Shown piece by piece: positions 34,139 to 55,520 of a stretch of 57,626 bases of DNA; the stretch's first letter is position 1; every line of letters begins with the position of its first letter. Location: contig JAAYCR010000076.1 in the NCBI GenBank assembly GCA_012729675.1, forward strand, positions 1 through 57,626. The letters run 5' to 3'. The position numbers and the translations under genes were made by a program. Origin of the DNA: Phycisphaerae bacterium (lineage in GTDB: Bacteria > Planctomycetota > Phycisphaerae > Sedimentisphaerales > Anaerohalosphaeraceae). A model generated the notes under the pieces. The model was not told the DNA's origin. It did no database searches and worked only from the letters and a program-made list of their open reading frames with translations.

Positions 34139-37100
34139 TTACTGCTGCTGCTGCTGCAACGGTGTTCGCTCTGATTCTTCCGTCATATTCGGCGGAGTGC
34201 CCATATCGCGATACTGAACCGTCCAGTAGAGCATAATTCCCGGCGCGCCGACATACCGCCAGTGCTCATGCGGACGCTCGACTCTCGACCGCCCATCCGG
34301 GAAGGTCCCGGTGGAATTGGCGAGATTCTGCCACGAACTTTCATAAACCAGCGAGCCGCCTTCCAGTGCCGAATAGGCGCGGAACTTGTACTCGACATTC
34401 TCGTGCTCCGCCCCGCCATCATCGGTCGCCGGTTCGGCCACCATAATGTGGAACCACTGGTTGTTGACCTGTCCCTGGAACGGATAATCGGCCTGGAACT
34501 GGGCAGGATCCGGATCCGGCGGAGTGATATCCGGCTCGGTCATAAGAATCGTTGCCCTTGCTTCATCGGTCTGGGATATTTGGAAACCATCCACATAGTT
34601 GTAAAACCGCATCCGAAGAGAATACACATACGTCGAATCGACTTCCAGACCGCTTTCCTCATAAATTGGGCTGACCTGCCAGCCGCTGCCGCTGCCCTCA
34701 GCGCCTGCACTCGGGAAAACATGCAGGAACCGATATTCAACCCGAACGCCGGCCGGCAAGGCCGGTCCGTTGTAGGGAACCGCTTCCATCCGCACCGTAT
34801 AGGGGCCACTGACATACGGCGTGTCCTCGACGAATTCCGCAGGATTCGGCGTCGGGAAGGTGTTTTGACCCGCTTTCTGAACTATGGCATCGGACCAGTC
34901 GGTCTCATTGCCGCTTCCGTCGCGTGCCTTCACTCGGAATGTAATTTCGCCGCCAGGGGTCAGTCCGTCCAGAGAGAGTTGCGGAGAGAATCTCCAGACT
35001 CCCAGACCGGGTCCCACGTTCAGGTCGGGTCTATCCACTGCCTCAAAATAGTACATAATGTACTCATCCGGCCACCACGCATCGTGTGTTGCGACAGCTT
35101 CCATTTCCATTTCTGTAAAGGTATCCGGCAGTGCGATGGGTTCCACGGCCCAGACCGACGGATTTGGCAGCGGCGACTCGGTATCTTCTTCGAGCCAGCA
35201 TGGGGTAAAGGTTAACAGGTCATAGATGTCCACAAAGCCGTCGAAGTTCAAATCGGTCCCAGTGCACCATAAATCTCCATCATAGCATTCCGATTCCATC
35301 CACCGGGACGCAATCTCTGCAAAGTCGGCCAAATCTACCCGACCGCTCAGAAAAACATCGGCTCTGCTGCAGTCGGTTTTGAAAGCTATCCTGTAATGAT
35401 ACCCTTGGTCCACGACGCCGCGGTCCGGATTGCCGAAGATGTTGGTCGTAAAGTCCGTCAGGCCCAAAGCGGATGCGGGCGTGCTGCCGGCGTCAATCGA
35501 TGGGCTGCCGGTGTTCAGGTAGTACTGATAATGAACATCGTCTTCTTCGACCCCGTCCGGTGCCACAAACCGCGGTTCGTGCAGCGCTGTGTTGCTGCCG
35601 AGCATCCCGTCGCCAGTATTGACGATGCAGTCTTGGTCGCGGAAAATCCCGCCGCCGCCGAGGGCCTGCACATTCGAGTAGGCGATGTTCAGCGTCGAAG
35701 GACGCGGGGCAACTAGAGATCCTGTGCTGACTGTAATCTGCGCACCTTGGGTGGCATTGTTGGACCAGAAGATGCTGTCCAATACATCCACAATGCTGTT
35801 GTAAGCGACGTACAAACCGCCGCCGGAGCCGGCAGTGTACAACTCATCCGTACCGTAACCGGTTGCCTGGTTATCCGCAAACGTACAGTTGCTAAAGACC
35901 ATGCGGCTGTCCCAGTTGACCGAGGCCCCGCCGCCGTCGTGACCGGCCGTGTTGCCGGCAAACAGCGTGTTGAAAACACTCGGCGGCGTCTGGACGGTAC
36001 CGGCCGTATAAAGCCCGCCGCCCGATATAGCGGCACGGTTGGTGATAAACACAGAATGACGCAGATCGAGATTTGTTCGATCCACAAACAGGCCGCCACC
36101 ATGACCGATATTCGAAGGGTCGACCTCCGGCAGCACTATATCATCATCTTCATCATCTTCATCATCTTCATCATCTTCGCCATCTTCGCCATCGCCTTCG
36201 TCCGGCGGCACGACATCGGCATCCGGCTGTTTGGCCAGGTTGTCCTGCACGACCGTATCCGTAATTAAGGCATCGCCACGTTCAAGATAAAGTCCCGCCC
36301 CCAGAAACGCCTCATTATTCAGGATGCTGCTGTTGGCAATCTCGACCGTCGAATCGCGACCGAAAATCGCGCCGCCGACGGCAGCGAGGTTGTCCTCGAA
36401 CTCGGTGTTGATGAAGAGTACCTCGCTGTCATGCTCGTAGGCCAACGCACCGCCAAAGCTGACTTCATAGGTCAGCGGAATCTCGACGGTACTCCTGTCG
36501 GCCAAGTTGCCGGCAAACCGCGAATTCTCAAAAACCAATTTGGAGTCATGCGCCGCATACACCGCACCGCCCGCATTCGGCACATTCAGTTGACGGTCGG
36601 GTAAAGGAGTGCTTGTGCCGCCGGCGCCGGTCAGGCCGCCCAAGGTCTGGTTATTTTCAAAGATACAGTCGACAAACCTTGCCTCGGACAGATAACTGAC
36701 ATACACTGCACCGCCTAAACCGGTGTACTTCCAGTAGTCCTCATAACCATCAATGTCCGGTGTGGTTGTCGCTAACGCTGAGGTTAAGAATTCCTGCCAA
36801 CTGTTCCACTTGTCCAACCCAAACCACTTGGACCACAGTTCCCAGTCATAACGGCCGAAATACGCGCTGTAGAGCGTGTATATATCGCCGTATTCCCAAC
36901 CATCCCACCACGACCACAATTCCGGGTCGTTCTCAATGGACGGCGGGAACAGGAAACCGCCGCCGCGACCACCGTTGGCGTCTTGCGTGCCATTGCCGCC
37001 GTTACCGCCATTGCCGCCGATGGCCTGATTGCCGGTAAAGGTACAATGCTCAAACACCGGCCTGCTGTTGAAGCCGACATAAACCGCGCCGCCGTAGGCG

Positions 37101-40100
37101 CGTCCCGGCCAACCGCCGTCGCCGCCTTCGGGGTGTTCATCACAACCACCGGCGCCGTCCTGACCATCGCCGCCCTGTACCAAATTCTCTTCAAATCTGC
37201 AACTGATAAACCGCGGCGCCCCTTCAATGATCGTAACTGCACCGCCAAAGACGCTGGCGCCATTAGCGCCGTCAACAACCAAGTTGGCGCAGTCGTGAGT
37301 AGCACTCTCGGTAGTCCCTACCCAACGGCAGTCGCGAATCACTACATTACGTATGATGGGCGATCCACGGTAAATGTCCACCCGACTTTGCTGTATAGTG
37401 ACACCCTCAATCACCGTTTCTTCAGTCGTATCAGTCAAATCAAATAGGTAACGTGAGAAAACCGTGGCGCTAACCATCTGCTCATCATCCGGATTCAAAC
37501 CGGATATCCGCACCGATTTTCCGTGCAGAGAAAGAGAGGCTATCGGGTCATCGCTGAAAGGCTCCTCTTCTCCCGAACCGACAGGCGGGCTATAGGATCC
37601 CGGATAGACCAGGATGTTGTCGCCGTCTTTTGCCGCGTCGATGGCATCCTGAATACTGGGTAAGCCCGTGCTGCCGCCGACAAAGTAGGTCTTGCGCTGA
37701 CGTACCAAGACGGTGATCGCCTTGTCACCGGTCATCAGAACCTTGTTCGTCGTCGCCGCGGACGTGTCGTTGACCGTCCCGCCCGACCAGCCGACAACGA
37801 TATAATCCGTTGGCAGTGAGACGGCCATCTCAACGACCTGGCCGAAGAAGTATTTGCCTTCATACGGCGGCAGCGGCGTCACCGTTACCGTTCCGCGCAA
37901 CTGTCCCTGCTCATCCCGTGCCTCGGCCGTCAGGGTCAGATTCGTACTCTGTTCGTCGGGATTGTAGTGATAGCCCAGATCGACCAGTCCGGTGTCATAG
38001 ATGATCTGGGTCATCGACGGGTGGGTCGTATAGCTGCTCAGCCCGACCGCTGCGGCGGTCGTATTGCCGGCATTGACGGCCGGACTTGACGGATTGAGAT
38101 AATACTTGCCAAGAGGACCGTTCACATACGTGGGATCGCTGAACAGTACATCGCCGTCATCCCATGTGAAGGATCCGCCCGGCTTTTGACCAAAGTTCGT
38201 CGGCGTATTGTTGTACACGATTGAGTTTTCAACGTGCGCGCCGGAGGACTGATCCACATAGATGCCGCCGCCGAATTGACCGGCGGTGTTGTCGGCGATT
38301 GTGCAGTTGTCAAATCGCGGCTGGGTATCGTTCATAACCATGACGCCGCCGCCGCGCCCTTCGGACGTGTTGCCTGCAATCAGACAGTTCTGCAGGCTAT
38401 ACGTGATGATGTCCGCCAGGCCGCCGTTGATGCACAGGCCGCCGCCGGCCGAATTCACGCCGTTGGCCGTATTGTTGAGGATTCGCGTATCGATCATCTC
38501 CGTTTTGGTATTGATCAAGTTTATCCCACCGCCGAAACCTTCACTTAACTTGCTGTGATAGTTTTCATAATCGCCGAGAAGAATAATACTGTACACAATG
38601 CCGCTGGTCGGGTCCTCGATCGTCTGGTACGTCGGAGCCAGACCGGTCGCCTCATTGTCGATAAACAGCCCGCCGGCCATCGTCAATTCGCTTTCGACCG
38701 CCATCAGACCGCCGCCGCTGTATGCGGCATTACCGAAGAACTGGCTGAACTGTAAGTCCAGAATGATATTCTTGACATAGATCGCCCCGCCCAACTCGTC
38801 GGACGTGTTTGTCACAAATTCACTATTGTGCAGATTGACCAACAGCATCTCGGTATTCGGACCGGGTATATCGCGATAAGCAAAAATCGCTCCGCCCTGC
38901 AAAATCGCATTGTTGCCGGTAAATGAACAGTTCTGAACCGTCAGATCGCTCTGGGTCTGGATCGCGCCGCCAGCCCCTTCGCTCAGGTTGCCGATAAACT
39001 GAGAATTGACAATCATCGGCGCTGTCGTCACATCCGCATCAATGGTAATGGCGCCTGCAGGAGGATCACGCAGTTCCACCATGCCAAACATCGATTCAAG
39101 GTTGTAAATGCCTTCTTTGCCCAGCGCCGGATCATACGTGGCGTTATTTTCAAAGAGGCAGTTGTCCACGGTCAGAACCGTCAGGTCGCCGGCGCTGATA
39201 TAAAGGGCGCCGCCTAGATTCTCGGTAAAGTCACAATTCTCAATCAACAAAACCACATTCGGATCGGCGAAAATTGCGCCGCCGCGAGTGAAGTCGTAAA
39301 TCTCCTGTTCAATGTCGCTGTTACTCTGCTCGATATCCTCAAGCGTTGACAGATACGCCCGGTTATTCTTAAACACGGACTTCTGAACGTTCTGAATGAG
39401 CGAACCGGTCCCTTCGCCAAAGTAGATTGCACCGCCGGCAACGGAACCATAAGACAGCAGAGAACCCGGCGTTCCGTCCGGAATATCCTCCCCATCACCA
39501 ATTCCGCCCATACCGGAAAAACCAAGCCGTACATAATTTCCTTCAAATAGATTATCGCTCATCAGCGCCGTGCTGCCGCCTTCGATATAGATTGCCCCGC
39601 CGCGACCATCGCCATAGCCGCTACCGCCGTTACCACCAGTACCGCCATCGCCGCCCCAGCCGCCGGTCGCGTAGTTATTGCAGAACGTGCAATATTCAAT
39701 GGTCGGACTGCTCGCATCAACCACTGCGATTGCGCCGCCAAAACCATTCCCCATGCCAACACCGCCATCGCCGCCAATACCGCCGGTAACCGCATTGTTT
39801 TCAAAGACGACTTTGCGGATGACCGGCGAACTGCCGTTGGCAATCAGGATCGCACCGCCATAGCCGTGGCCAACTCCGGAGATTCCGACTGCCCCGGCCC
39901 AGAAGCCGTTGCGAATCGTAATACCCTCGATCACCGTTTTTGAATCTTCGCCGCTATTGAAAGTAAAGGCGCGTTTGCGAGCCAACGGTGTACCTTGTAC
40001 GTCAATGACCGTATTGGCGATGACATACGAATCGTTTGGATCGGAGGATCGCAGCGTCAACTGTTTGCCGCCAAAGTTGAGACCTTCAGGATGGGTGATG

Positions 40101-43100
40101 GTATAGGGTTGTCCGAAGCGCGGAGCCAGTACAATCGTATCCTTCGACCGTGCCGCCTGAACCGCTTCCTCAATCGTAGCATACGCTTCCGGCACGAGCA
40201 GGGATTTCGGTATCGCCAGTTCAAACTCAACCTGGACATTCCGCGACGCGGCCATCAAAACCGCATTGGTCAGTTCAAACGAAGTATCGTCCTCAGTCCC
40301 GATCCAGCGACGGACGCGATAATTGGCCTCCGGAACCGCCGTCAGCAGCACCTGTGTGCCCTGCTTGAGCGTCACGGATTCCGGCGTCTGGCCGACGGTA
40401 AACTCACCGCCCTGCCAGGACACGTTGAGACTGCCGAAGGGGTAATGATTCCCCACAAACACCGACGCCGTCAAGGTGTACTCTTCCACCGGCAAGGCCG
40501 CATTGTAGTGGTACCCCATATCCACCGTGTCGGTATCCGGCTCGTGGTCGGTGCGCGTGCTAGCCGCAAAGCCCAACAGATCTTCCAGTATCGACGCATT
40601 GCCGATACCGGTGTTGACGGACGGACTGGTCTCATACTGCCCGGCCGCCTCTTGCGCCAAATAGAAAGTGCGCGTCGTCGGATCGTCCGGGTCAACCGTT
40701 CGGGTCTGTATAAATTGCGGATCGGCGTCAATCACCCCGCCGGAATTGAATGCCCACGGATAGCCGTAGGGTTCGCCCAAAAAGACATCCGCAAGATGCC
40801 CTTCGATGTTGGTGTAATACAGTTCCAACGTGCTGGGCACATTGAAGACCTTGAGCGGATCGCCCACCGCCACCTGCGGACCAAAGACCGCCAGGTTGTT
40901 CCACAAGATACTGTTTTTAAGCAGCACATAACTGGAGTCCCACCAATTCCAATCGTCGCCGTCGCCGCTGAAATGATCGTAACCAAGACTGATCGCACCG
41001 CCGTCACCGTACATATTCGTCGCCAGGTTGTCGGCCAGCGTACAGAACTGCAACATCAGTTCGGCGCCGTTCATTGCTTTGATCGCACCGCCGGTCATCC
41101 CGGCTTCGTTTTCCACGAACAGACAATTGATAAACTCCTGCCGGACGTCCCAGTCGCCCAGACTATCTGCGACATAAAATGAAGGACCGAGCAGATAAAC
41201 CGACCCGCCGCCGTATTGCGCCAGGTTGGCAACAAATGTGTTGTTGGTCAGCACGGCGCCGGAATGGTCCGCATAAATCGCACCGCCCAACGCCGCCATA
41301 TTCGTGCTGCCTGTCCCGACCGGAACGGCCTGGTTGCCCACGAAGTCAGAATTGGTGATGCGCACATCTGAATCCCACCAGCTCATCGCACCGCCGTACT
41401 CGGCCGTGTTTTCAGAAAACTGACACTCCTCAACTCTCAAAATACTCAACCATGCCGCAATACCACCGCCGTATTCGGCCTGGTTGCCGGAAAAGGCGCT
41501 GCGAAGAATCGTATGCACAGTGTTAGGGTCCACAGCAAGGCCCAGATACTCAATGTCGATCGCACCACCGGTACACGTCTGAGTGTTTGAAGCGCTCGGA
41601 AGCCCTGACCGATTGTCCGTAAATGTGCAATCCGTGACAGACAGAGGACCGCTTGAGCCAATGATCTCTTCGGAGCCATCAACGCCAACGATCACATTGG
41701 AGCCAGCTTCAATGGTCACAAAAGAGATCGCACCGCCGACACCGGTGCCGGTTACACTGTTTTCGGTAAATGAAGACCGGACGAGATTGCATGTATTCGC
41801 ACTGTAAACATAAAACGCACCGCCCGACCCGCCGGCCCTGTTGTTCACAAAGGTGCAGTCTTCAACCGTAAGCGTTGAACCCAAATAAAACGCACAAATC
41901 GCACCGCCATGGTCGGCTTCAGCATAGTTGTCCAGAAAGTCAGTATTTTTTATCGACAGATCGGCCTGCCCATTCAGGACAATCGCACCGCCATAGGAGC
42001 GATTGAATCTGCTCGCACCGGGATTGCTTCCCTGACCTCCATCCGGCTGTCTGGTTCCGTCTGTATTACCGCCGCCCTGACCGTCAGCGCCGCCGGCGCC
42101 GGACGAATTGCCATCCCCGGCATCGCCGCCGTCACCGCCGTCACCGCCGTTACCGCCCTGGCCATTGCCGCCCGCCCCGGCATTGCCGCCGGCGCCGCCG
42201 GCGCCGCCGTTATAGGGGAAACTGTCAACCAGATAGGAGGCCAGGCTGTTTTGGATGGAAGAGCCGGAAATCTCAATCACACAGCCCTGACTTATAAAGA
42301 AAGTGCCGCCCAACGCACCATACCATCGTTCTGCTTTCTCATATCCATTAATTCCGCCCTCGCCGCCGTCGCCGCCGTCGCCGCCGTCGCCGGCGCGACC
42401 CACCAATCCGTCCTCCTGCCCCTCAGCACCGTCGCCGCCGGGACCGCCATTGCCGCCGTTGCCGCCGGCGCCGGCACTGCCGGCGGAATTACCCAGACCG
42501 GGCATGGTCACACAGTTGACAAAGCTCAAATCAATTAAGGTGGCCTGACAGTTATCTTCAAAGAAAATGGCACCGCCGCCGGCAGCGCCGCCCCAGCCGC
42601 CGTCGGCCCCGTCGCCGCCGCGACCGCCGTCACCGCCGCGACCGCCCTGGCCGCCAAACCCGCCCGGAATTTCGGGAATGTTTTCTTCTTCTTCTTCACC
42701 TTCGACTGCATCGACTGCATCGGCGCCATCGCCGCCGTCACCGCCATGACCGCCGTCACCGCCGCGACCGCCGGCGCCGCCGGCGCCGGCGTTGCCGCCG
42801 ATCGCCTGGCAGTTCTGGAAGGATACTTTCTTAATCAGCGGAAAGCTGTTTTCACCAAAGTACATCGCACCGCCCAGCCCCATGCCGCCATCACCGCCGC
42901 GCTCGCCGTCCTCACCGGGAGTCCCATCGCCGCCGCGATCGCCTTCACGACCGGATCTTAAATCCGCCGCCGCATAAACAGTCTCGCTGACAATAACCCC
43001 TTCATGCACAAAATGCACTGTCAGTTCTTCCGAATCCAAGCCCTCAAGCGTGTACTGAATCGGGTTGTCGAGTTCTTCGTCAACGGGCGCCCAGAGTACC

Positions 43101-46100
43101 CCCGAACGCTGCTCAATCATCACAGAACGTTCAACCACCGCCGCCCCTTGGTAGAGGCTGGCCGTCAGAACAATAACTTCTTCCGGCGTCCAGGTGAGAG
43201 CTGCGCCGCGTGATTGCAGAAAAACAAGCCCGTAATAGGATTCCACAGAAAGCAGCACTTCACGGTCCGCCGCCTCATCGGCAATTCGCACCGGGTCCTG
43301 CCACGTCTGTCCGCCGTCATCACTGAGCCGCATATAGCGATGTCCTTCGAGAAACGTTTCGACCCAGTCCTCTTGGCCATCGACACTATACTGCACGGCC
43401 TCTTCATCAATTTCCTGAGGATCCGCCCAGCCCACCTGATCGGCGAAAAAACCCCCCGTCCATTTTTGCGCCGTCGTAAACCACAGCGGCTCATCGCCCT
43501 CCGGCGGCACCGGGTACCATATATCGAGTAATAGGCCTCCGATATCACCCACTTGATCCGGCCTTTCCGGTGCAACAAATGACCGAGTGAACAGATACTC
43601 GGTAAACGGTGGCTCTGTCGTCAGATTGACCAACGTAATGGTGTCTATCACCGCACCGGCCGGACCGTCCTTTAATGTAATCTCCATGCTGCCGTCAAAG
43701 TCCTCGTAACCAAACATCACTTCGTATCCGAGCGGATTATTGTCCGGATCGTAAAGCTCAATAGTGCCGGCATCCAGCGTGCTTTCCACATTTTCAATCA
43801 CGGAGCGCGCTTGAATGATAATTAAGTCATTGATGCCTCGAATCGCCGTGATGCCGTTTTCCGGGTGGATGTAATAAATCGGGGTATGGTATTCGCCTTC
43901 AATGCCGTCACCCCCGTCGCCCCCGTCAGCGCCGCGCTGGCCGCCTTGGCCGGCATTGCCGTTGCGGCCGTCCTGACCTTGTGCGAAACTGTCACGGATA
44001 ATCAGGTTGATCAGCGTGGGCGAACTGCCGTTAATCGCATACACTGTACCACCAAAAGCATCCAGACCGTTCGGATCAGACTGCGGACTTGGAGGGTTTT
44101 TCGGCGCGCCCACGGCGTAAGCGTTCTGGATCGTAAAGCCGGTAACAACCGTATCCCGCCCCTCAACGAAATTTGGATCGGTACCAAAAACAAAGGCGCG
44201 GCACTCTCCACTGCCTCCCGTCTGTGAGCCTCCCGGGTCAATAATGGTCGCCGCAACCACACTCGGATCGTCCGGATTCTCGCTGCGCAGCGTCACCGCC
44301 TTGCCCTGAAAATCCAGGTTGCTGTTCCCCCCGCCGGTATAGGTGGCGGGCCTGACCACCACGGTATCGCCGTGATAGGCCGCATTCAGTGCGCTTTGAA
44401 TGGTTGCATAAGGGAAAGGTACGGTCAGCGTTCGCGGCGGCGGCCCAATAATCACACTTTCGACCACCGTATCCGTCGTTTGGTTTTGCTGGGCAGACTG
44501 ATCGCGCACCTGCAATTCAAAATCGTATTTATAGCGAGGAGAATCCTGGGGACCAATCGGGCTTAAACCGCCGACGGTAAACGATGTGGCGGTTTGCCAG
44601 TCACTGCTCAGTTCATCGGCGTCGCCGGCATAGAACGGATCATTGGGGTCGCTGTATCTCGGATCATCCGTAAAAATACAGACAAATCGGTATTCAACGC
44701 TATTTTCATCGTAATGCGTCTGGGCCTCCATAAAAATACCGGGGGCAGCGTTTGCGCCGATTTTTCGCGGCACCGCCGCCCACCGCGCCGGATTGGGAGC
44801 CGGCGGGAGATCATCAACACCGCTTGCCGTTGTGGTAGAGACGTCTTCAGACCACAAGCCGACATTTTGGTTCTCAGATTTGTCGCGGTACTGCACGCAG
44901 AAGGTGTACGTTGTACCCTCGGCGGCGGTGAAGACCTGATACAGCGGGCTATCCTGCCAGCCGCTGCTTAACGACTCGTCTTCAAGACATTCAAAGTAGT
45001 ATTCAACGCCCGATGGGTCCTCAGCGACCACCGAACGCATCACGATATGGTGTAAGCCCGTTGCCGTCGGCACAATATCCCACTGCGCCGGATTCGGCGT
45101 CGGCGGCAAAACATCCGCCCCCCCGACCGCCTGGATCGCATTATTCAGGTTTAACCGTGCTTCTGAAACACTCAGATCGATCAACGACACGAGCCTGTCG
45201 GCGGTACTCATCAAAATCTGCTTAATATCCAGATAGGTCAGCTCTGGATTGACCGACAGCAGCAGCGCCGCGGCGCCCGCAACATGCGGAGACGCCATCG
45301 ACGTACCGCTCATATATTCGTAAGAATTGTTGGGCATCGTGCTGAGAATGTTCTCGCCCGGCGCGCCCAGATGCACCGTCGTTTTGCCCCAATTGGAAAA
45401 GGACGAACGCTGATTTGCATGATCTGTCGCCAGAACGGACAGGATATTATCAATATTGTAGCTGGCCGGATACGCTGGTGTAAGATCGTTGTCAAGGGCT
45501 TCATTGCCCGCCGCCGCGACAAACAGCATACCCGCTGCCCGACTGGCTTCAATCGCGTCAAATAAGGCCTGGCTATACTCATAGCCGCCCCACGAATTAT
45601 TGGCGATATGTGCCCCGTTGATGTAGGCATACTGAATCGCCTCAATGGCGGCGGCTGTCGAAACATTTTGGTCTCCGATCTTCAGTGCCATCATCCGCAC
45701 GTTCCAGTTGATCCCTGTAACGCCGAGATTATTATTGCCCACCGCACCAATCGTGCCGGCCACATGGGTTCCATGGCCGTCATTATCCACGATCATTCCG
45801 GTTTGATTAGCAAAATCGTACCCGTAGATGTCATCAATATACCCGTTGCCGTCGTCATCCGCACCGGTTAAGCCATATAACTCCGCTTGATTGACCCACA
45901 TGTTGGCTGCCAGATCAGGATGCGAGTAGTCCACGCCCGAATCAATCACCGCTACAATGACGTTCCGACTTCCGGTCGTCACATCCCAGGCCGGAACGGC
46001 TTTGATATCAGCGCCCGGCGTACCGCCGGTCTGACCGGTATTGCGCAATCCCCACATCTCATCGAACATAGGATCATTGGGTACGGCTTGAAACTGATAA

Positions 46101-46405
46101 ATATAGTCCGGCTCGGCATACTTGACGCCAATGGTCGCCTGAAACGTACTTTGAGCCGTTTTCACTGTGGCTCCCTCAGGCAGTTTAACCACGGCCAGAC
46201 CGGGAATGAGCGGATACATCCGTTCAATCGTTCCGCCGCCGGCGGCATTCAACACCGCTTGGCGTGTCGTATCGGCTTGCGATGTAAATTCCGTCTCGGT
46301 AAATCGCACCAGCAGATAGCCTTCGCGATACTCATTCGCCTCTGCGATACCGCCAACCGCAAAAAGAAAAGATAAAAGCAGCCCCGCAAACAGTGTGTGT
46401 CTCAT
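34139..46405 (-). CDS. Giant secreted subtilisin-like protease with beta-helix cassettes and dockerin
   Basis: A 4088-residue multidomain protein. The start at 46405 has GGAGG 6 bases upstream and a signal peptide ending near residue 23; an open extension of 15 codons lacks this. Order of domains: propeptide-like segment; S8 protease (about residues 90-420) with catalytic Asp155, His211 and Ser369 (GTSMASPHVAG) and oxyanion Asn301; two modules headed PxPNPA (about 430-655); beta-helix cassette 1 (about 655-2000); InlB-like repeat; cassette 2 (about 2065-2810); InlB-like repeat; cassette 3 (about 2900-3670); dockerin (about 3675-3740); three more PxPxPA modules; Gln tail. Each cassette opens with a PYATIQ...GDTV-type header, holds GGA(I/L) and FxxN repeats, and closes with an SPS(I/V)xxG...DxGYHY end. 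Glycine-rich loops are inserted. It is most likely exported and displayed or released; the target of protease and helices is unknown. Confidence 0.9.
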   Translation of the reverse strand: MRHTLFAGLLLSFLFAVGGIAEANEYREGYLLVRFTETEFTSQADTTRQAVLNAAGGGTIERMYPLIPGLAVVKLPEGATVKTAQSTFQATIGVKYAEPDYIYQFQAVPNDPMFDEMWGLRNTGQTGGTPGADIKAVPAWDVTTGSRNVIVAVIDSGVDYSHPDLAANMWVNQAELYGLTGADDDGNGYIDDIYGYDFANQTGMIVDNDGHGTHVAGTIGAVGNNNLGVTGINWNVRMMALKIGDQNVSTAAAIEAIQYAYINGAHIANNSWGGYEYSQALFDAIEASRAAGMLFVAAAGNEALDNDLTPAYPASYNIDNILSVLATDHANQRSSFSNWGKTTVHLGAPGENILSTMPNNSYEYMSGTSMASPHVAGAAALLLSVNPELTYLDIKQILMSTADRLVSLIDLSVSEARLNLNNAIQAVGGADVLPPTPNPAQWDIVPTATGLHHIVMRSVVAEDPSGVEYYFECLEDESLSSGWQDSPLYQVFTAAEGTTYTFCVQYRDKSENQNVGLWSEDVSTTTASGVDDLPPAPNPARWAAVPRKIGANAAPGIFMEAQTHYDENSVEYRFVCIFTDDPRYSDPNDPFYAGDADELSSDWQTATSFTVGGLSPIGPQDSPRYKYDFELQVRDQSAQQNQTTDTVVESVIIGPPPRTLTVPFPYATIQSALNAAYHGDTVVVRPATYTGGGNSNLDFQGKAVTLRSENPDDPSVVAATIIDPGGSQTGGSGECRAFVFGTDPNFVEGRDTVVTGFTIQNAYAVGAPKNPPSPQSDPNGLDAFGGTVYAINGSSPTLINLIIRDSFAQGQDGRNGNAGQGGQRGADGGDGGDGIEGEYHTPIYYIHPENGITAIRGINDLIIIQARSVIENVESTLDAGTIELYDPDNNPLGYEVMFGYEDFDGSMEITLKDGPAGAVIDTITLVNLTTEPPFTEYLFTRSFVAPERPDQVGDIGGLLLDIWYPVPPEGDEPLWFTTAQKWTGGFFADQVGWADPQEIDEEAVQYSVDGQEDWVETFLEGHRYMRLSDDGGQTWQDPVRIADEAADREVLLSVESYYGLVFLQSRGAALTWTPEEVIVLTASLYQGAAVVERSVMIEQRSGVLWAPVDEELDNPIQYTLEGLDSEELTVHFVHEGVIVSETVYAAADLRSGREGDRGGDGTPGEDGERGGDGGMGLGGAMYFGENSFPLIKKVSFQNCQAIGGNAGAGGAGGRGGDGGHGGDGGDGADAVDAVEGEEEEENIPEIPGGFGGQGGRGGDGGRGGDGADGGWGGAAGGGAIFFEDNCQATLIDLSFVNCVTMPGLGNSAGSAGAGGNGGNGGPGGDGAEGQEDGLVGRAGDGGDGGDGGEGGINGYEKAERWYGALGGTFFISQGCVIEISGSSIQNSLASYLVDSFPYNGGAGGAGGNAGAGGNGQGGNGGDGGDGGDAGDGNSSGAGGADGQGGGNTDGTRQPDGGQGSNPGASRFNRSYGGAIVLNGQADLSIKNTDFLDNYAEADHGGAICAFYLGSTLTVEDCTFVNNRAGGSGGAFYVYSANTCNLVRSSFTENSVTGTGVGGAISFVTIEAGSNVIVGVDGSEEIIGSSGPLSVTDCTFTDNRSGLPSASNTQTCTGGAIDIEYLGLAVDPNTVHTILRSAFSGNQAEYGGGIAAWLSILRVEECQFSENTAEYGGAMSWWDSDVRITNSDFVGNQAVPVGTGSTNMAALGGAIYADHSGAVLTNNTFVANLAQYGGGSVYLLGPSFYVADSLGDWDVRQEFINCLFVENEAGMTGGAIKAMNGAELMLQFCTLADNLATNMYGDGGAISLGYDHFSGDGDDWNWWDSSYVLLKNSILWNNLAVFGPQVAVGDPLKVFNVPSTLELYYTNIEGHLADVFLGEPYGYPWAFNSGGVIDADPQFIQTRTVDPDDPTTRTFYLAQEAAGQYETSPSVNTGIGNASILEDLLGFAASTRTDHEPDTDTVDMGYHYNAALPVEEYTLTASVFVGNHYPFGSLNVSWQGGEFTVGQTPESVTLKQGTQVLLTAVPEANYRVRRWIGTEDDTSFELTNAVLMAASRNVQVEFELAIPKSLLVPEAYATIEEAVQAARSKDTIVLAPRFGQPYTITHPEGLNFGGKQLTLRSSDPNDSYVIANTVIDVQGTPLARKRAFTFNSGEDSKTVIEGITIRNGFWAGAVGISGVGHGYGGAILIANGSSPVIRKVVFENNAVTGGIGGDGGVGMGNGFGGAIAVVDASSPTIEYCTFCNNYATGGWGGDGGTGGNGGSGYGDGRGGAIYIEGGSTALMSDNLFEGNYVRLGFSGMGGIGDGEDIPDGTPGSLLSYGSVAGGAIYFGEGTGSLIQNVQKSVFKNNRAYLSTLEDIEQSNSDIEQEIYDFTRGGAIFADPNVVLLIENCDFTENLGGALYISAGDLTVLTVDNCLFENNATYDPALGKEGIYNLESMFGMVELRDPPAGAITIDADVTTAPMIVNSQFIGNLSEGAGGAIQTQSDLTVQNCSFTGNNAILQGGAIFAYRDIPGPNTEMLLVNLHNSEFVTNTSDELGGAIYVKNIILDLQFSQFFGNAAYSGGGLMAVESELTMAGGLFIDNEATGLAPTYQTIEDPTSGIVYSIILLGDYENYHSKLSEGFGGGINLINTKTEMIDTRILNNTANGVNSAGGGLCINGGLADIITYSLQNCLIAGNTSEGRGGGVMVMNDTQPRFDNCTIADNTAGQFGGGIYVDQSSGAHVENSIVYNNTPTNFGQKPGGSFTWDDGDVLFSDPTYVNGPLGKYYLNPSSPAVNAGNTTAAAVGLSSYTTHPSMTQIIYDTGLVDLGYHYNPDEQSTNLTLTAEARDEQGQLRGTVTVTPLPPYEGKYFFGQVVEMAVSLPTDYIVVGWSGGTVNDTSAATTNKVLMTGDKAITVLVRQRKTYFVGGSTGLPSIQDAIDAAKDGDNILVYPGSYSPPVGSGEEEPFSDDPIASLSLHGKSVRISGLNPDDEQMVSATVFSRYLFDLTDTTEETVIEGVTIQQSRVDIYRGSPIIRNVVIRDCRWVGTTESATHDCANLVVDGANGASVFGGAVTIIEGAPRFISCRFEENLVQGGDGQDGAGGCDEHPEGGDGGWPGRAYGGAVYVGFNSRPVFEHCTFTGNQAIGGNGGNGGNGTQDANGGRGGGFLFPPSIENDPELWSWWDGWEYGDIYTLYSAYFGRYDWELWSKWFGLDKWNSWQEFLTSALATTTPDIDGYEDYWKYTGLGGAVYVSYLSEARFVDCIFENNQTLGGLTGAGGTSTPLPDRQLNVPNAGGAVYAAHDSKLVFENSRFAGNLADRSTVEIPLTYEVSFGGALAYEHDSEVLFINTEFEDNLAAVGGAIFGRDSTVEIANSSILNNEAFLGAGLYLERGDALITDTVVQDNLAKQPDADVVPPDEGDGEDGEDDEDDEDDEDDDIVLPEVDPSNIGHGGGLFVDRTNLDLRHSVFITNRAAISGGGLYTAGTVQTPPSVFNTLFAGNTAGHDGGGASVNWDSRMVFSNCTFADNQATGYGTDELYTAGSGGGLYVAYNSIVDVLDSIFWSNNATQGAQITVSTGSLVAPRPSTLNIAYSNVQALGGGGIFRDQDCIVNTGDGMLGSNTALHEPRFVAPDGVEEDDVHYQYYLNTGSPSIDAGSTPASALGLTDFTTNIFGNPDRGVVDQGYHYRIAFKTDCSRADVFLSGRVDLADFAEIASRWMESECYDGDLWCTGTDLNFDGFVDIYDLLTFTPCWLEEDTESPLPNPSVWAVEPIALPDTFTEMEMEAVATHDAWWPDEYIMYYFEAVDRPDLNVGPGLGVWRFSPQLSLDGLTPGGEITFRVKARDGSGNETDWSDAIVQKAGQNTFPTPNPAEFVEDTPYVSGPYTVRMEAVPYNGPALPAGVRVEYRFLHVFPSAGAEGSGSGWQVSPIYEESGLEVDSTYVYSLRMRFYNYVDGFQISQTDEARATILMTEPDITPPDPDPAQFQADYPFQGQVNNQWFHIMVAEPATDDGGAEHENVEYKFRAYSALEGGSLVYESSWQNLANSTGTFPDGRSRVERPHEHWRYVGAPGIMLYWTVQYRDMGTPPNMTEESERTPLQQQQQ
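36141..36190. repeat. 9-base tandem repeat coding an acidic stretch
   Basis: ATCTTCATC-type units repeat about four to five times and encode a run of Asp and Glu (GEDDEDDEDD) within the third beta-helix cassette of the giant protein. The unit length is a multiple of three, so copy-number change would keep the frame. Confidence 0.75.
42050..42800. repeat. Glycine-rich coding repeats of the giant gene
   Basis: Three GCC/CCG-rich stretches (about 42050-42215, 42355-42480 and 42560-42800) encode GGxGGDGG-type sequence on the minus strand. Further short ones lie near 42880-42950, 43890-43975, 39600-39665, 39740-39785, 36955-37025 and 37110-37165. They all fall at equivalent points, between the ends of a GGA(I/M)xF helix turn and the next turn. 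Confidence 0.75.
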
Positions 46406-46464
46406 GACACCCTCCGAAAAGAAAGTTCCATTTTTCATCGTTTTTTCCATTCCGACAAGAAAAG

Positions 46465-46494: not shown

Positions 46495-46846
46495 TCGACA
46501 CAACAGGCCCGGTCGTTCGATAATCCGTTACCTTATCGGAGAATAATACCCGTGAGTTTAGCTTCTTCTATAGCAGATTCCCTGCTAAAAGTCAACCCCA
46601 AAGAAGTTGCTTCAACGCCCCACTGACAATTCTCGTCTTTTTATCGGACCCCCTATTTGTTGTCGCGGAATCCTTTAAAACGTCCTAAAGTCAAATCCAT
46701 GACAGATTTATTATATAAGAATGATAGGCATTTTTATAAAAAAATTACTGAAAATTTTGAATTTTTCTCAATTAATTTCCCCTATTACGATAAAATGCCT
46801 TTTTTGTAGAAATTTTCCCGACTTGAAAACGACTGTCCGGAACTGT

Positions 46847-48130
46847 ATGAAGCTGTTGTCAAACAAATCGACCCTGAAAGGAGAGATTTCGATCCCTGGC
46901 TCGAAATCGCACACAATCCGCGCCGTGGCAGTGGCGGCATTGGCGGAAGGGACAAGTTGTATCCGAAATCCGCTCATCTCCAGCGACACCCTGAGTGCGG
47001 TGGACTGCTATCGATCTTTAGGGGCTGAAATCGATAAATCGAATCCTGAAATATGGGTTGTTACCGGAACTTCGGGGAAAATTCGCAACAAAAACCAGCT
47101 CATAGATGTCGGAAACTCTGGGACGACGCTGCGGATGGCCCTTGCATCGGCCGCCCTTGGCACTCCCGAAGGTTCGGTCACCTTTACCGGCGACAAGCAA
47201 ATCCAAACCCGCCTGCTTGGCGCGCTGGCCAATTCTTTAAATGACCTCGGTGCTATCGTACAGTCCGTTAAAGGTAACGGATGCGCCCCGGCGATCGTCC
47301 GGGGTCAACTCAAAGGCGGCCGTACATCTATTGAGTGCTTTACCAGTCAATATTTATCCAGTTTATTGATGGCATGCCCGCTGGCCGAGGGTGACACCGA
47401 AATTGAAGTGACCCTGCTAAACGAACCTGACTACGTCAAAATCACGATCGACTGGCTCGATAAACAACAAATTCGTTACGAAAACAACGATTTCAAGAGC
47501 CTTTTTATCCCCGGCGGCCAGCACTACACCGCATTCGATGAGGCCATTTGCGCCGATTTTTCCAGCGCGACATTTTTTCTCTGTGCCGCAGCCCTCTGCG
47601 GCCGGGACGTGCTGATTCGCGGTCTGGACTTTAATGACAGCCAGCCCGATAAGGCGGTAGCCGACTACCTTGCGGCAATGGGCGCCGACATCCGGCAGGA
47701 ACCAAATGGCATCCGCATCCGCGCTTCCGCTCTCAAAGGCGTCGAAATCGATATGAACCGCACTCCGGACGCCCTGCCCGCCATGGCGGTTACCGCCGCA
47801 TTTGCCGACGGCGTCACCCGGCTGGTCAACGTACCCCAAGCCCGCAAAAAAGAAACCGACCGCATCGCCTGCATGGCCGTCGAGATGAAAAAACTTGGCG
47901 CCGATATCGAAGAACTGCCCGACGGCCTGATCATCCGCGGCGGAAAACCCCTCACCGCCGCCGCCGTCAGAGGCCACGACGACCACCGCATCGTGATGGC
48001 GTTGGCGATGGCCGGTCTGGCGATACACGAGCCGGTCGAAATAGACACCGCCGAGGCGATGAACGTTACGTTTCCGGAATATGTAACCTTGATGAAAAAA
48101 CTCGGAGCCGATCTGAACACAACGAAATAA
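46847..48130 (+). CDS. aroA: 3-phosphoshikimate 1-carboxyvinyltransferase (EPSP synthase)
   Basis: A 427-residue enzyme of the shikimate pathway that joins phosphoenolpyruvate to shikimate 3-phosphate. Signatures: IPGSKSHTIRAVAVAALAEG at the N terminus, GNSGTTLRM near residue 90, and RKKETDRIACMAVEMKKLGADIEE near residue 340, the last with the conserved K-E-[ST]-D-R motif. The segment PGSKSHTIR has the PGSKS core, and Gly in the active-site loop reads GNSGT instead of the GNAGT common in class I enzymes. The frame is open to 46721, but homology starts at 46847. It is a single-gene unit with a terminator after it. Confidence 0.93.
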   Translation: MKLLSNKSTLKGEISIPGSKSHTIRAVAVAALAEGTSCIRNPLISSDTLSAVDCYRSLGAEIDKSNPEIWVVTGTSGKIRNKNQLIDVGNSGTTLRMALASAALGTPEGSVTFTGDKQIQTRLLGALANSLNDLGAIVQSVKGNGCAPAIVRGQLKGGRTSIECFTSQYLSSLLMACPLAEGDTEIEVTLLNEPDYVKITIDWLDKQQIRYENNDFKSLFIPGGQHYTAFDEAICADFSSATFFLCAAALCGRDVLIRGLDFNDSQPDKAVADYLAAMGADIRQEPNGIRIRASALKGVEIDMNRTPDALPAMAVTAAFADGVTRLVNVPQARKKETDRIACMAVEMKKLGADIEELPDGLIIRGGKPLTAAAVRGHDDHRIVMALAMAGLAIHEPVEIDTAEAMNVTFPEYVTLMKKLGADLNTTK

Positions 48131-48237: not shown

Positions 48238-50136
48238 ATGAATCACACGCTGGATTTTGAATCCCACTGGCGGCAATTTGAGCTACCTGAACACATCGTG
48301 CAGATACTCGACGCCTGCCCAAGCTGCCTGTTTCCCAAGAGCCGCGCCGAGATTCTTGATTTGGCGATGGGCAATTCCGATGCGCCCGTCTTTGAAGTCG
48401 CTTACGATGTCCCCGGCAAAGGCCCCGTCACAGAAGCGACCGTCACCCGCTGCACCAACGGTCTGGCTGTCAACTATATCGATCCCTATATGCGTCGGCG
48501 CGACCCGGACTGTATGGTCATCGCCGACGACAAAGAAACCGACAAGTCCCGGTTCCAGGATCGCTTCGGCACCCCCTTTTCGCCCCTCCGCGACGACACC
48601 TTCAAGTGGCTGACCGGACAAGACTTGGTCGTGACGCTCTTTACCATCGGAGCATTTGAAGCCAACACCGGTCAAGGCGCGATGCTGATCGCCCCCAAAA
48701 ACGCCGGCTTCTTCGTCGGCGGCCTGGCCGACCTGCAGGGAATGATCCCCGCCGACCAAGTCCCGGCCAACTTCCGCATCCGCAGCGTTATCTATCTGGC
48801 CCCCCCCTACCGCCACACGCATTTTGACGGCAGACAAATGGTTGTACACAACCGCCTCAAAGGGCTGCATGAAGTCTTCTCCTACAACCTCTACCCCGGC
48901 CCCAGCGCCAAAAAAGGCGTCTATGGCGTCCTGCTGTCCATCGGCGAAAAAGAAAATTGGCCGACGCTGCACGGCTCGACCGTCGAGGTCGTCACCCCCT
49001 ACGACAACATCACGACCATCATGCACGAAGGCGCCAGCGGCGGCGGCAAAAGCGAGATGCTCGAATACGTCCACCGCGAAGAAGACGGCCGCCTGCTGCT
49101 CGGCGAAAACGTCGTCACAGGCGACAAACGCTATCTGACCCTCAATCAGGCCTGCCATCTGCACCCCGTCACCGACGATATGGCGATGTGTCTGCCCAAC
49201 GACAAAGACGGCTACCTCTTCGCCAAAGACGCAGAGCAGGCGTGGTTCGTCCGCATCAACCACATCCGCAAATACGGCGTCGATCCGCACCTCGAGGCGA
49301 TCACCATCCACCCGCCCGAACCGCTCATCTTCCTGAACCTGGCCGCCGTGCCCGGCTCGACCTGCCTGATCTGGGATCACACGCAGGACAAGCCCGGCGT
49401 ACCCTGCCCCAACCCGCGCGTCATTTTGCCGCGCCGATTCGTGCCCGATGCCGTCGAAGGCCCGGTCGAGGTCATGGTCCGCAGCTTCGGCATACGCACC
49501 CCGCCCAGCACCAAAGAAAATCCCAGCTACGGCATCGTCGGCTGTCTGCACGTCCTGCCGGCCGCCCTCGGCTGGCTCTGGCGGCTGGTCGCCCCCCGCG
49601 GCCACGACAATCCGTCCATCACCGACACCAAAGGCATGACCAGCGAAGGTGTCGGTTCGTATTGGCCGTTTGCCACAGGCCGCATTGTCGATCATGCCAA
49701 CCTGCTGCTCCGCCAGATTCAGGCCACCCCCAAAGTCCGCTACGTCCTGACGCCCAATCAGCACGTCGGCGTCTGGAAGGTCAGCTTTATGCCCCAGTGG
49801 ATCAGCCGCGAATACCTGGGCCGCCGCGGGGTCGCCCGTTTTCGCTCCCAGCAGCTCCAGCCGTCACGCTGTCCGCTGCTCGGTTATGCGTTCACCTCCA
49901 TGCAGATCGAAGGAACCCCCATCCCGCTGCAATTTCTCCAGGTTGACTCACAGCCCGAAGTCGGCCCCGAAGGCTACGACGCCGGTGCGGACATCCTCCA
50001 GAAATTCTTCGAAAAGGAACTCAACAACTTCCTCCACCCCGACCTCGACTCGCTCGGCAAGAAGATCATCACCTGCTGCCTTGACAAAGGAACGGCCAAA
50101 GATTACGAAGACCTTCTCTATGACGTCTTCAAATAA
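48238..50136 (+). CDS. DUF4914-like P-loop protein, HprK/PEPCK-type Walker A
   Basis: A 632-residue soluble protein with no signal peptide. I associate it with the uncharacterised DUF4914 family from length and layout. The central P-loop, GASGGGKSEM (about residues 265-274), has the G-x-S-G-x-G-K-S-E form of HPr kinase/phosphorylase and the SGxGK of PEP carboxykinases. Later segments, such as IWDHTQDKPGVPCPNPRVILPRRFVP and SEGVGSYWPFATGRIVDHANLL, have no close named match to me but would lie in the phosphate-binding and metal-binding part of a PEPCK-like fold. A kinase or carboxykinase-like reaction is possible, but no function is established. The gene stands alone between two terminators and is oriented with aroA. 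A 493-codon minus-strand open frame over it is a shadow. Confidence 0.75.
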   Translation: MNHTLDFESHWRQFELPEHIVQILDACPSCLFPKSRAEILDLAMGNSDAPVFEVAYDVPGKGPVTEATVTRCTNGLAVNYIDPYMRRRDPDCMVIADDKETDKSRFQDRFGTPFSPLRDDTFKWLTGQDLVVTLFTIGAFEANTGQGAMLIAPKNAGFFVGGLADLQGMIPADQVPANFRIRSVIYLAPPYRHTHFDGRQMVVHNRLKGLHEVFSYNLYPGPSAKKGVYGVLLSIGEKENWPTLHGSTVEVVTPYDNITTIMHEGASGGGKSEMLEYVHREEDGRLLLGENVVTGDKRYLTLNQACHLHPVTDDMAMCLPNDKDGYLFAKDAEQAWFVRINHIRKYGVDPHLEAITIHPPEPLIFLNLAAVPGSTCLIWDHTQDKPGVPCPNPRVILPRRFVPDAVEGPVEVMVRSFGIRTPPSTKENPSYGIVGCLHVLPAALGWLWRLVAPRGHDNPSITDTKGMTSEGVGSYWPFATGRIVDHANLLLRQIQATPKVRYVLTPNQHVGVWKVSFMPQWISREYLGRRGVARFRSQQLQPSRCPLLGYAFTSMQIEGTPIPLQFLQVDSQPEVGPEGYDAGADILQKFFEKELNNFLHPDLDSLGKKIITCCLDKGTAKDYEDLLYDVFK

Positions 50137-50290: not shown

Positions 50291-51919
50291 TCAGGGAAGG
50301 TCAAACTCGATTTTGGCCGCACCCAAGAGCGTCCCGGTGGCGTATGCGGCGTCAACCAGAGAGATTTGATATTCCGCCAGCGCAGCGATTTCGGCACGCT
50401 GGGCCTCGGCCAGCCGCGTCTGGGCCTCCAGAACATCAGTGCTGGTCCTCATTCCGATCTCAAACTGACGCAGTTCGGCCTCGTAGAGCTGGGCCTGAAG
50501 CAGGGTGTTTTGCCGCCCAGCCAGAATGCGCTGCCAGTTGGCCTCAACGCGGTCAACAGCGCTGAGTACTTCCATCTCGATGAGAGATCGGCGGCTTTCG
50601 GCGTCGGCCAGAATCTGCGCACGTTCGTAGAAGGCGCCGAGCAGGCGATTTTTGGCCGCAACGTTGCCCAACGGGATGACCATTTGCACGCCGAGCCGAT
50701 GGTCGGCAAAGCGGTGATCGCCGAGCAGACCGAAGGAATCGCTTCGGGTCTCACCCAGCCCGCTGATGTTGTAGGTATAGTCCAGGTTAACAATCGGCAG
50801 TGCCTGATTGCGGAGGTAGTCAATGGTGCTGACCTGCCGGGCAAGCTGAAGCTCGTACTCCAGCAGTTCCATACGGTTGGCTTCAGCCAGTGAGACCAGC
50901 ACGGCCGGATCCAGTGCGTAATAGATCGGGTCCGGCTCGGTGTCGGGAATAAGACGAATCACTGAGTCTGGCAAAAAATCCTGTTGCTGGAGCACCTGCT
51001 TGAGTTCGCGCTGGCGGTTGCGCACATCGTTTTCGGCGAGGATGATCGCCTCCAACTGCGTGGCCAGTCCGGCCTCGGCGCGGAGGATTTCGATGGGGGC
51101 GTGGGTGCCCGCATTGACGAAGCGCCGTGCACGCTCCAACTGGGCCTGAGCCAGAGCGTACTGCTGCTGACGGACGGTCAGTACCTTTCGGGCGGCGTAG
51201 AGCCGCCAGTAAAACCGCTCGACCTCGGCCAGAACCCGGATGACCTCCAGTTTGGTGCGGGCGTCCACGATCTGCCGATTGTAGCGGGCAATGCGAATCG
51301 TGTGCAAGGTCGTTCGCCGGCCGGCATTGCGGAGCAGCGGATGGCTGATCGACGTGGTAAGATTACCCACATAGGACGGATTCAGCACTGAAAATTCGTT
51401 GTTGGTTTTTGTCCACAAGTCGGCCAGTGCAAACTGAAGCGTTCCCCCGGTTTGCAGCGGCATCTCGACGCCCAGATTGGTGCGGGCGGATTCTTCCTGT
51501 GAACTGGTCAGGCGTGACGGGGCCGGCGAGTCGGTTTTGGAATAATTGACATTGGCAAAGAATGCCGCTTCAAATTTGGCCTCTTCGGCCTGGACGGCAG
51601 CCTGCGAAATCTGCGGGCCGATGAGCGCGGCCTTCAGTCCGAGGTTGTTCTGCAGGGCCATCGCTCGGCACTGCTCCAGAGTCAGCGTTACCTGGCCGTC
51701 GTTGGGGTCGGCAAACAGGGGGGCCATGAGCGTCTCATCCATCGCGTCGATGTGGGTTCCGGACGTCAGCGGCAGGACGGCGATGTCGGAAAACCGCCGT
51801 CGGTCAAATCGCTGTTCATGAGGGTCTTCCAGCCCACACCCGGCCAGAATAACCGCCGCGGCCGCCGACAACACGGACACCGCCGCAACCTGTTTTAGTT
51901 TTAAGCTGTGGTTTCGCAT
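50291..51919 (-). CDS. TolC-like outer-membrane efflux lipoprotein
   Basis: A 542-residue outer-membrane factor. The lipobox ILAGC near residue 28 indicates an acylated protein, as in OprM-type members of the family. The mature part has two long helical repeats, including LEQCRAMALQNNLGLKAALIG and LAEAQRAEIAALAEYQISLVDA near the C terminus, matching the OEP domain pair. It forms the exit duct of a tripartite pump. The start at 51919 is used because the upstream in-frame TTG directly follows the AAAGG sequence. It is the last gene of the leftward adaptor-ATPase-permease-duct operon. Confidence 0.9.
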   Translation of the reverse strand: MRNHSLKLKQVAAVSVLSAAAAVILAGCGLEDPHEQRFDRRRFSDIAVLPLTSGTHIDAMDETLMAPLFADPNDGQVTLTLEQCRAMALQNNLGLKAALIGPQISQAAVQAEEAKFEAAFFANVNYSKTDSPAPSRLTSSQEESARTNLGVEMPLQTGGTLQFALADLWTKTNNEFSVLNPSYVGNLTTSISHPLLRNAGRRTTLHTIRIARYNRQIVDARTKLEVIRVLAEVERFYWRLYAARKVLTVRQQQYALAQAQLERARRFVNAGTHAPIEILRAEAGLATQLEAIILAENDVRNRQRELKQVLQQQDFLPDSVIRLIPDTEPDPIYYALDPAVLVSLAEANRMELLEYELQLARQVSTIDYLRNQALPIVNLDYTYNISGLGETRSDSFGLLGDHRFADHRLGVQMVIPLGNVAAKNRLLGAFYERAQILADAESRRSLIEMEVLSAVDRVEANWQRILAGRQNTLLQAQLYEAELRQFEIGMRTSTDVLEAQTRLAEAQRAEIAALAEYQISLVDAAYATGTLLGAAKIEFDLP

Positions 51920-51942
51920 TTTTGATTTCAACCTTTACGTTG

Positions 51943-53211
51943 TTATTCGTGCCGCAGGGCCTCGATGGGATTGAGACGCGCGGCCTTAATCGCCGGGAAC
52001 ATGCCGAAGACGACGCCGACAAAGGCCGAGAAACCGAACGAGACGGCAATGGCCCACGCGGGAATCTGCGTTTGTTCCATCAGCGGGGCGGAGTTGGCGA
52101 TGACGCTGGCCAGCAAGTGTCCGAAACCGACGCCGATAAGACCGCCGATCATGCACAACACGACCGCTTCGACCAGAAACTGCGTCAAGATGGCGGACGG
52201 CCGCGCCCCGACGGCTTTGCGCAGACCGATTTCGCGTGTACGCTCCGATACCGAGACCAGCATAATATTCATAATCCCGACGCCGCCGACCAAAAGTGAG
52301 ATACTGACAACCCCGGCGGCGACCAGCGTAATCATCCCCATGACCTCCTTGAATTGGCGGACTTCGTTTTCCATCAGGAAAACGCCGAAGTTGTCCGGTT
52401 CGCCGGGGCGCAGGCCGCGGGTGCGGCGCAGAAAGAAGCGAATCTCCGCTCTGGCCTCATCGGCAACCGTGGAGTCGCGGCAACTGGCCATCACGCGAAT
52501 CCAGGGCATACGGACCAGCTTGGCGGCGGTGGTATAAGGGATATAGGCTTCCATCGGGTCATCGGAGCCGCCGAACATCATGCCGGTATTGGGCTTGTCT
52601 TCCACCACGCCGGCCACCAGGTAAGAATTAATTCCCAGTTGAATGATCTGGCCGGAACAGTCGCGATCCATCTGCAGTTTGTCGCGCAGTTGGGCGGTGA
52701 TGATGCAGACATAACGACCCTGACTTTCGTCGAGCATCGAGAACGGACGGCCGAAGACAATGGGACGGTTTTCGATCTTGAACCAGCTTGCATCGACGCC
52801 GGTGACGGAGACCGAATCCACCGTGCGATTCATATAGCGGCCGGGGACGCGGCCGGCATTGGCGATCAACGAGATAAATTCGACCGAGGGGCAGTGCTCC
52901 AGCAGGCCTTCAAAGTGCTTGGCCTCAAATCGCAATTGCCAGGTGGGGGCGTTTTTCTGCGGGCCGGAACTGGGCTGTTCGGGCCAGATGAAGATTTTGC
53001 GCGTGCCGAACATCTCGAAGTTTTCCAGAATTTTGCGGTTCATCCCCTCCATCGCCGCGATGACCGCCGAGACCGAAGAGACGCCGATAATGATGCCCAG
53101 CGTCGTCAGGATGCTGCGCGTCTTGTTGACCCATATCTGGCTCAAGGCCAGCGCTGCGCTTTGCAGGACGAGCCGAAACAGGAACAGCGGGAACATAAGG
53201 AGGGCTGTCAT
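51943..53211 (-). CDS. MacB-type ABC transporter permease (FtsX-like)
   Basis: A 422-residue permease with the MacB layout: one N-terminal transmembrane helix after SQIWVNKTRSILTTLGIIIGVSSVSAVIA, a large periplasmic MacB-PCD domain (about residues 60-260), and three C-terminal helices in the FtsX domain, including SISLLVGGVGIMNIMLVSVSERTREIGLRKAVGA. Unlike E. coli MacB the ATPase is a separate gene. It overlaps the ATPase gene by four bases. It would move substrates from the periplasm through the TolC duct without crossing the inner membrane. Confidence 0.93.
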   Translation of the reverse strand: MTALLMFPLFLFRLVLQSAALALSQIWVNKTRSILTTLGIIIGVSSVSAVIAAMEGMNRKILENFEMFGTRKIFIWPEQPSSGPQKNAPTWQLRFEAKHFEGLLEHCPSVEFISLIANAGRVPGRYMNRTVDSVSVTGVDASWFKIENRPIVFGRPFSMLDESQGRYVCIITAQLRDKLQMDRDCSGQIIQLGINSYLVAGVVEDKPNTGMMFGGSDDPMEAYIPYTTAAKLVRMPWIRVMASCRDSTVADEARAEIRFFLRRTRGLRPGEPDNFGVFLMENEVRQFKEVMGMITLVAAGVVSISLLVGGVGIMNIMLVSVSERTREIGLRKAVGARPSAILTQFLVEAVVLCMIGGLIGVGFGHLLASVIANSAPLMEQTQIPAWAIAVSFGFSAFVGVVFGMFPAIKAARLNPIEALRHE

Positions 53212-55351: not shown

Positions 55352-55520
55352 GTTGGTGCCTTTCAACAAAACATTACCCTTGGCTGAGCATCCAGACAAA
55401 CGTTGGAAGCACAATCATATCTCAAACAGGGATAATGAAAAGTGATTTTTTTGTTAATAGACGCCTTGAGGGTAAAAATGTTACCAAAAAAGAGTCATCG
55501 AATGAAATAAATGGTATTAT

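Follow-up and report, generated by a model that had tools for sequence, protein, structure and literature searches.

Deseasin MCP-01, a collagenolytic S8 protease from Pseudoalteromonas SM9913, degrades collagen and possesses a PKD domain that binds and swells the substrate (PMC11294657). In the Pmp proteins of Chlamydia, FxxN/GGA rungs form the adhesin passenger (PMC2997323, PMC10715098), and in published models (PMC10715098) these motifs make up buried helix rungs in a Phycisphaerae protein as well as in Chlamydia. The Pmp-like Phycisphaerae protein MBL7186538.1, with rungs of the FxxN/GG type, is described only as an example of the helix, with no protease reported (PMC10715098). Planctomycetota show an enrichment of both giant proteins and dockerins (PMC11573180), and the planctosome model of the Nemodlikiaceae proposes dockerin/cohesin-linked extracellular peptidases in planctomycetes (PMC6461901).

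The window analysed here, the 57,626 nucleotides of contig JAAYCR010000076.1 from a Phycisphaerae bacterium, encodes a giant protein that resembles each of these systems in part. With MCP-01 it shares an S8 domain and putative binding modules after it, whereas MCP-01 has neither beta-helix rods nor a dockerin (PMC11294657) and the P-proprotein and collagen-binding PKD modules of deseasin are absent from the Pfam matches of the giant to E 0.1. As in Chlamydia Pmp, the giant has beta-helical rungs in which FxxN and GGA(I,L,V) motifs recur and scores over the cut-offs of PF02415 and TIGR01376, but it lacks an autotransporter barrel (PF03797 is absent from the Pfam matches and the C-terminus is FN3) and has an N-terminal S8 domain and a dockerin/FN3 tail. 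The rungs are also like those of MBL7186538.1, as judged from the published description only. The huge dockerin-bearing proteins of Planctomycetota belong to the same large size class and share the dockerin enrichment, whereas the accessible part of PMC11573180, which gives domain statistics and treats proteins over 5,000 aa, contains no family with the domain order of the giant. The planctosome peptidases are of the M12B/M14 types and cohesin-bound (PMC6461901), whereas that of the giant is an S8 domain inside a rod protein and no cohesin was found. Rhombotarget A (PDB 9cdu), the only solved chain found by a profile of the third cassette (E 0.001), is a beta-helix like that cassette but is much smaller, with 465 residues in the solved chain, and has no protease domain. 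The first-pass annotation of the window considered the combination undescribed; the open-access literature searched contains no account of a protein that combines an S8 protease, Pmp-type rods, and a dockerin tail, but giant dockerin proteins and Pmp-like Phycisphaerae helices had already been reported (PMC11573180, PMC10715098).

The gene lies on the minus strand, as do all features of the protein given below, in an unbroken open frame of 4,103 aa (34139..46450). A GGAGG (46411-46415) lies five bases before a second ATG, at position 46405, and because of this motif and the clean signal peptide that begins there, the start at 46405 is taken as correct and the gene spans 34139..46405 (4,088 aa), in agreement with the single intact frame first annotated. 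The Sec signal peptide (residues 1-23, MRHTLFAGLLLSFLFAVGGIAEA; 46337..46405), identified from the sequence and a hydropathy scan, is the only strongly hydrophobic stretch of the protein. After it come a prodomain and an S8 domain, then a pair of FN3-like domains. Three beta-helix cassettes follow, with InlB-like repeats between them, and a dockerin-like module leads to three FN3 domains at the end of the chain. An Rfam scan of the window gave no match, with no riboswitch or structured leader upstream of the gene, and a promoter scan of the upstream region gave nothing above chance on the gene's strand.

This domain content strongly favours a secreted, surface-type protease-helix protein, as predicted from sequence. 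The preferred reading, with a probability of about one half, is a Sec-exported, self-maturing surface or extracellular protease whose rods would bind and space it and whose dockerin/FN3 tail would hold it in place. After export, the prodomain would fold the protease and then be cleaved off; the Gly-rich rods would extend outwards from the cell, where they would attach to a polymer, a particle, or a partner cell; the dockerin/FN3 end would retain the protein on the surface or join it to other envelope parts; and the N-terminal S8 domain would digest protein held near the rods. Such a protein would work like deseasin MCP-01, with its catalytic domain and substrate-binding modules, scaled up and with exchangeable rods, and changes in rod number between species by duplication would set its reach or binding valency. 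Proteolysis could instead be directed at the giant itself or at its partners.

A Pfam domain search, which the first-pass annotation had proposed as a check alongside structure prediction of the cassettes, identified the S8 subtilase domain (PF00082, E 4.2e-62, 210 bits) at residues 108-427 (45125..46084), a fervidolysin-type N-terminal prodomain (PF22148, E 6.8e-7, 30.0 bits against a cut-off of 21) at residues 25-103 (46097..46333), which is conserved in the orthologue alignment, and eight Beta_helix stretches. Prodomains of this kind guide and inhibit subtilases, and that of the giant probably serves as both chaperone and inhibitor. The catalytic triad of D155 (45941-45943), H211 (45773-45775), and S369 (45299-45301) and the oxyanion N301 (45503-45505) are intact, as had been noted, and invariant in 13 of 13 aligned orthologues. 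Between the S8 domain and the rods lie two linker domains of the PxPNPAxW type (residues 432-654; 44444..45112), which are conserved in the orthologue alignment, have no meaningful Pfam match on their own, and are probably FN3-like given their similarity to the C-terminal domains.

The closest solved match to the S8 family profile is deseasin MCP-01 (PDB 3vv3, E 1e-135, 456 bits; the next match has 257 bits), and the similarity is confined to the catalytic domain. Because this closest solved protease is digestive and collagen-degrading, a role in digesting external protein is no less likely than processing or assembly. The first-pass annotation had suggested a secreted processing or surface-assembly factor, of which the secreted, surface-type part is upheld by the signal peptide, prodomain, rods, tail, and selection, whereas the processing or assembly of other surface proteins is conjectural. 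As such a factor, the S8 domain would cut its own linkers or exported dockerin-bearing proteins, and the freed rods would assemble on the surface. Dedicated maturation subtilases elsewhere do such processing, and the S8 domain is distantly similar to the maturation subtilases T7SS mycosin and PatA; InlB-like and FN3-like linkers lie between the rods, and other dockerin-like proteins of the genome are possible substrates. The domain nevertheless scores far below the cut-offs of the NCBIfam maturation-subtilase models, no cleavage sites were identified in the protein, and its closest solved relative is digestive, which makes a processing factor a doubtful reading, albeit the alternative that survives best.

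The preferred reading of a rod-borne, tethered protease is also consistent with the helical region. Three beta-helix cassettes run from a header to a GYHY closer: the Gly-rich cassette 1 at residues 658-1967 (40505..44434; PF13229, 36.2 bits), cassette 2 at residues 2067-2814 (37964..40207; PF13229, 79 bits), and cassette 3 at residues 2905-3671 (35393..37693; AlphaFold2 model and fold comparison). Their relatedness, asserted at first from shared motifs, is confirmed by 25-36% mutual identity within the protein in BLAST and by a profile comparison of cassettes 2 and 3 (probability 100%, E 2e-105). The common closing motif SPS(I/V)xxG that had been claimed holds only in part, in that all three cassettes have the GYHY closer but the preceding wording varies slightly (SPSVNTG, SPAVNAG, and SPSIDAG). 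Similarly, the first of two claimed InlB-like repeats (Flg_new_2, PF18998) is over the cut-off at 36.8 bits (residues 1974-2064; 40214..40486), but the second is weak at 14.2 bits, below the cut-off (residues 2821-2904; 37694..37945), and its assignment rests partly on its position between cassettes like that of repeat 1. Cassette 2 matches the Chlamydia PMP repeats of PF02415 (44.8 bits against a cut-off of 20.6) and TIGR01376, and the helix region contains 23 GGA(I,L,V,Y) and 35 FxxN motifs compared with 1.4 and 7.8 in shuffles. Cassette 1 contains a 312-aa insert (42956..43891) with no family match, which it shares with a single other protein, L036 from the same genus (41% identity).

Cassette 3, modelled with AlphaFold2 from 12 sequences, folds as a right-handed beta-helix that has disordered loops (pLDDT 79, pTM 0.85). 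Its best Foldseek matches are PL6 lyases and AlgG, and VIA gives Z scores of 20-21 to AlgE modules, which, together with the dockerin profile matches given below, would suit a polysaccharide-degrading complex in which the helices are PL6/AlgG-like lyases or epimerases and the dockerin docks into a cellulosome-like assembly. However, VIA scores tailspikes, Vag8, pertactin, and NosD about equally well, so the fold is generic, and the matches of both methods, including AlgG/AlgE and rhombotarget A, are generic beta-helices. No carbohydrate-enzyme or lyase family was found in the cassettes by Pfam or NCBIfam scans, and with the generic fold this makes a lyase identity for the rods unlikely. Most of the residues that are invariant in cassettes 2 and 3 are Gly, Asn, or Cys; Asp, Arg, and His are few, and no conserved charged cluster is present. 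Those that are charged comprise the header and closer Asp, the closer His, and one Arg or scattered Asp. This scarcity of charged invariants argues that the rods would more probably bind than catalyse.

The single dockerin of the first-pass annotation (residues 3677-3739; 35189..35377) is recognisable at the level of the family, where a profile of ten orthologue modules places cellulosomal dockerins first (2y3n, E 4e-4), but alone it reaches only 18.0 bits against the PF00404 cut-off of 22.9. A cellulosomal dockerin has two F-hand calcium loops with a helix after each. The second calcium loop of the module, DLNFDGFVDIYD, is canonical, and the first is degenerate in the window protein and complete in orthologues L047 and L048. 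The same profile finds the module in about a dozen other frames of the genome, including a second S8 protease. Dockerin-like frames are located on contigs C61, C90, C48, C74, C14, and C29 of this genome, G000 (L150-L154, L002), with several grouped on C74 and one in a beta-helix protein. Cohesin (PF00963) has no match in the same genome and none in the orthologue-bearing genomes searched, a set without G095; membership of a cellulosome was rejected on these grounds, and a polysaccharide-degrading complex is unlikely. A dockerin-like module without a detected cohesin suggests either a receptor that is divergent, which is possible, or that the module acts in another way, and it indicates that this order may have a receptor not yet recognised. 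The tail ends in three FN3 domains (residues 3742-4088; 34142..35182) identified by fn3 profile matches, AlphaFold2, and Foldseek, the AlphaFold2 model being only moderate (pLDDT 71.5, pTM 0.41).

At least 15 related species have conserved this giant protein, although the number of its rods differs among them. When the first 654 residues were used as query, strong matches were obtained in draft genomes of the same genus, family, and order. Single-frame orthologues from twelve genomes measure 3,482-4,787 aa, apart from one of 2,574 aa, and are colinear with the window protein from end to end at 44-47% identity within the family and 36-39% outside it, with the headers, GYHY closers, and dockerin-like module sharing alignment columns. 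In two close pairs, 500-codon segments gave dN of 0.02-0.27, dS of 0.3-1.9, and dN/dS of 0.06-0.17 along the whole length, which is under purifying selection. As the orthologues are colinear and dN/dS is low throughout, a split frame or other frame error and an assembly or chance fusion were excluded, and the further grounds for doubt named in the first-pass annotation, a missing propeptide and unrelated cassettes, are contradicted by the PF22148 prodomain and the cassette homology. This whole-protein conservation, the FN3-like domains (the three at the C-terminus supported by fold search), the PMP repeats, and the genus-specific insert of cassette 1 are additions to that annotation. Wider searches of the class and phylum returned many S8 proteins, with full-length N-terminal matches confined to the same order. 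A wider contig scan returned mostly unrelated subtilases from many phyla; its only match extending well beyond the protease domain is the planctomycete record CP070715.1, where the frame is short and partly masked. Elsewhere in the phylum, S8 domains occur in frames of 4,591-6,052 residues (G383:C43:25434, G615:C1:444945, and G576:C1:7402429).

A role in predation or as a contact weapon, which work cited in PMC12057145 has proposed for the giant proteins found in Omnitrophota and their relatives, would have the rods hold a neighbouring cell while the protease attacks it, and the giant size, adhesin-like rods, protease head, and rod number varying between species would fit, but with no toxin domain in the Pfam or NCBIfam scans of the protein and a conserved orthologue under purifying selection beside housekeeping genes, such a role is improbable.

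The divergent neighbour of the giant gene is aroA (EPSP synthase; 46721..48130, plus strand; PF00275, E 3e-102), assigned also by synteny, and aroA adjoins the giant in most relatives. In f7 genomes, the giant is directly preceded by a TPR-secretin and directly followed by aroC and aroA. Of the neighbouring genes, aroA, aroC, and TatD are of housekeeping type, and DUF4914 is an uncharacterised family; a functional operon with these neighbours was rejected, and the synteny is therefore evidence of orthology and not of function. The TPR-secretin (L048:598-3720, L049:12194-15406, L054:1-2169, and L149:7158-10082) is of the PilQ/GspD/MshL type and, in several f7 relatives, precedes the giant by 42-320 bases. 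It is also near the giant in two f1 genera, is unlinked in the window's own genome, and occurs in genomes that lack the giant, being widespread either way. Its presence in genomes lacking the giant and the absence of linkage in the window's own genome led to its rejection as a dedicated secretion partner, and outer-membrane export through the neighbouring secretin in some relatives is only suggested.

Two relatives carry frames of 10,565 and 12,792 aa at the same secretin-giant-aroC-aroA locus, with the catalytic motifs intact. GYHY-type closers number two in the shortest orthologue (2,574 aa), three in most, four in one, at least seven in the 10,565-aa protein, and 12 in the 12,792-aa protein, these cassette counts being drawn from the motif and not from structure and the two largest frames lying on draft contigs. 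The locus therefore ranges from 2 to about 12 rods and from 2,574 to 12,792 aa, with the ends constant (S8 in front, dockerin-like/FN3 at the back). The window cassettes match the same-position cassettes of other species far better than they match each other, suggesting that the three-cassette state is old, whereas in the 12,792-aa protein some adjacent cassettes match each other best (e.g. c5/c6, 60%), a sign of later tandem duplication. It is possible, though tentative, that this is an 'accordion' locus, vertically inherited with a constant S8 head and dockerin/FN3 tail, in which 2 to about 12 Pmp-type rods have been gained or lost; if so, a tethered protease would have its reach or valency tuned through the number of rods, a design that, to our knowledge, is known for no bacterial surface protein. 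As an ordered and conserved family that combines a predicted enzymatic head with a readable rod repeat and, at one syntenic locus, comes in a natural series of lengths, the giant opens the roles of giant bacterial surface proteins, and of Pmp-type helices outside Chlamydia, to biochemical test.

Two further features of the window lie beyond aroA. The DUF4914 protein (PF16260, 1011 bits; 48238-50136, plus strand) is beside aroA in the window's own genus and in g2 relatives. At 50291-55414 on the minus strand, TolC-type, MacB-type permease, ABC ATPase, and HlyD-type genes stand in a row some 4 kb away from the giant and make up a tripartite cluster for efflux or export.
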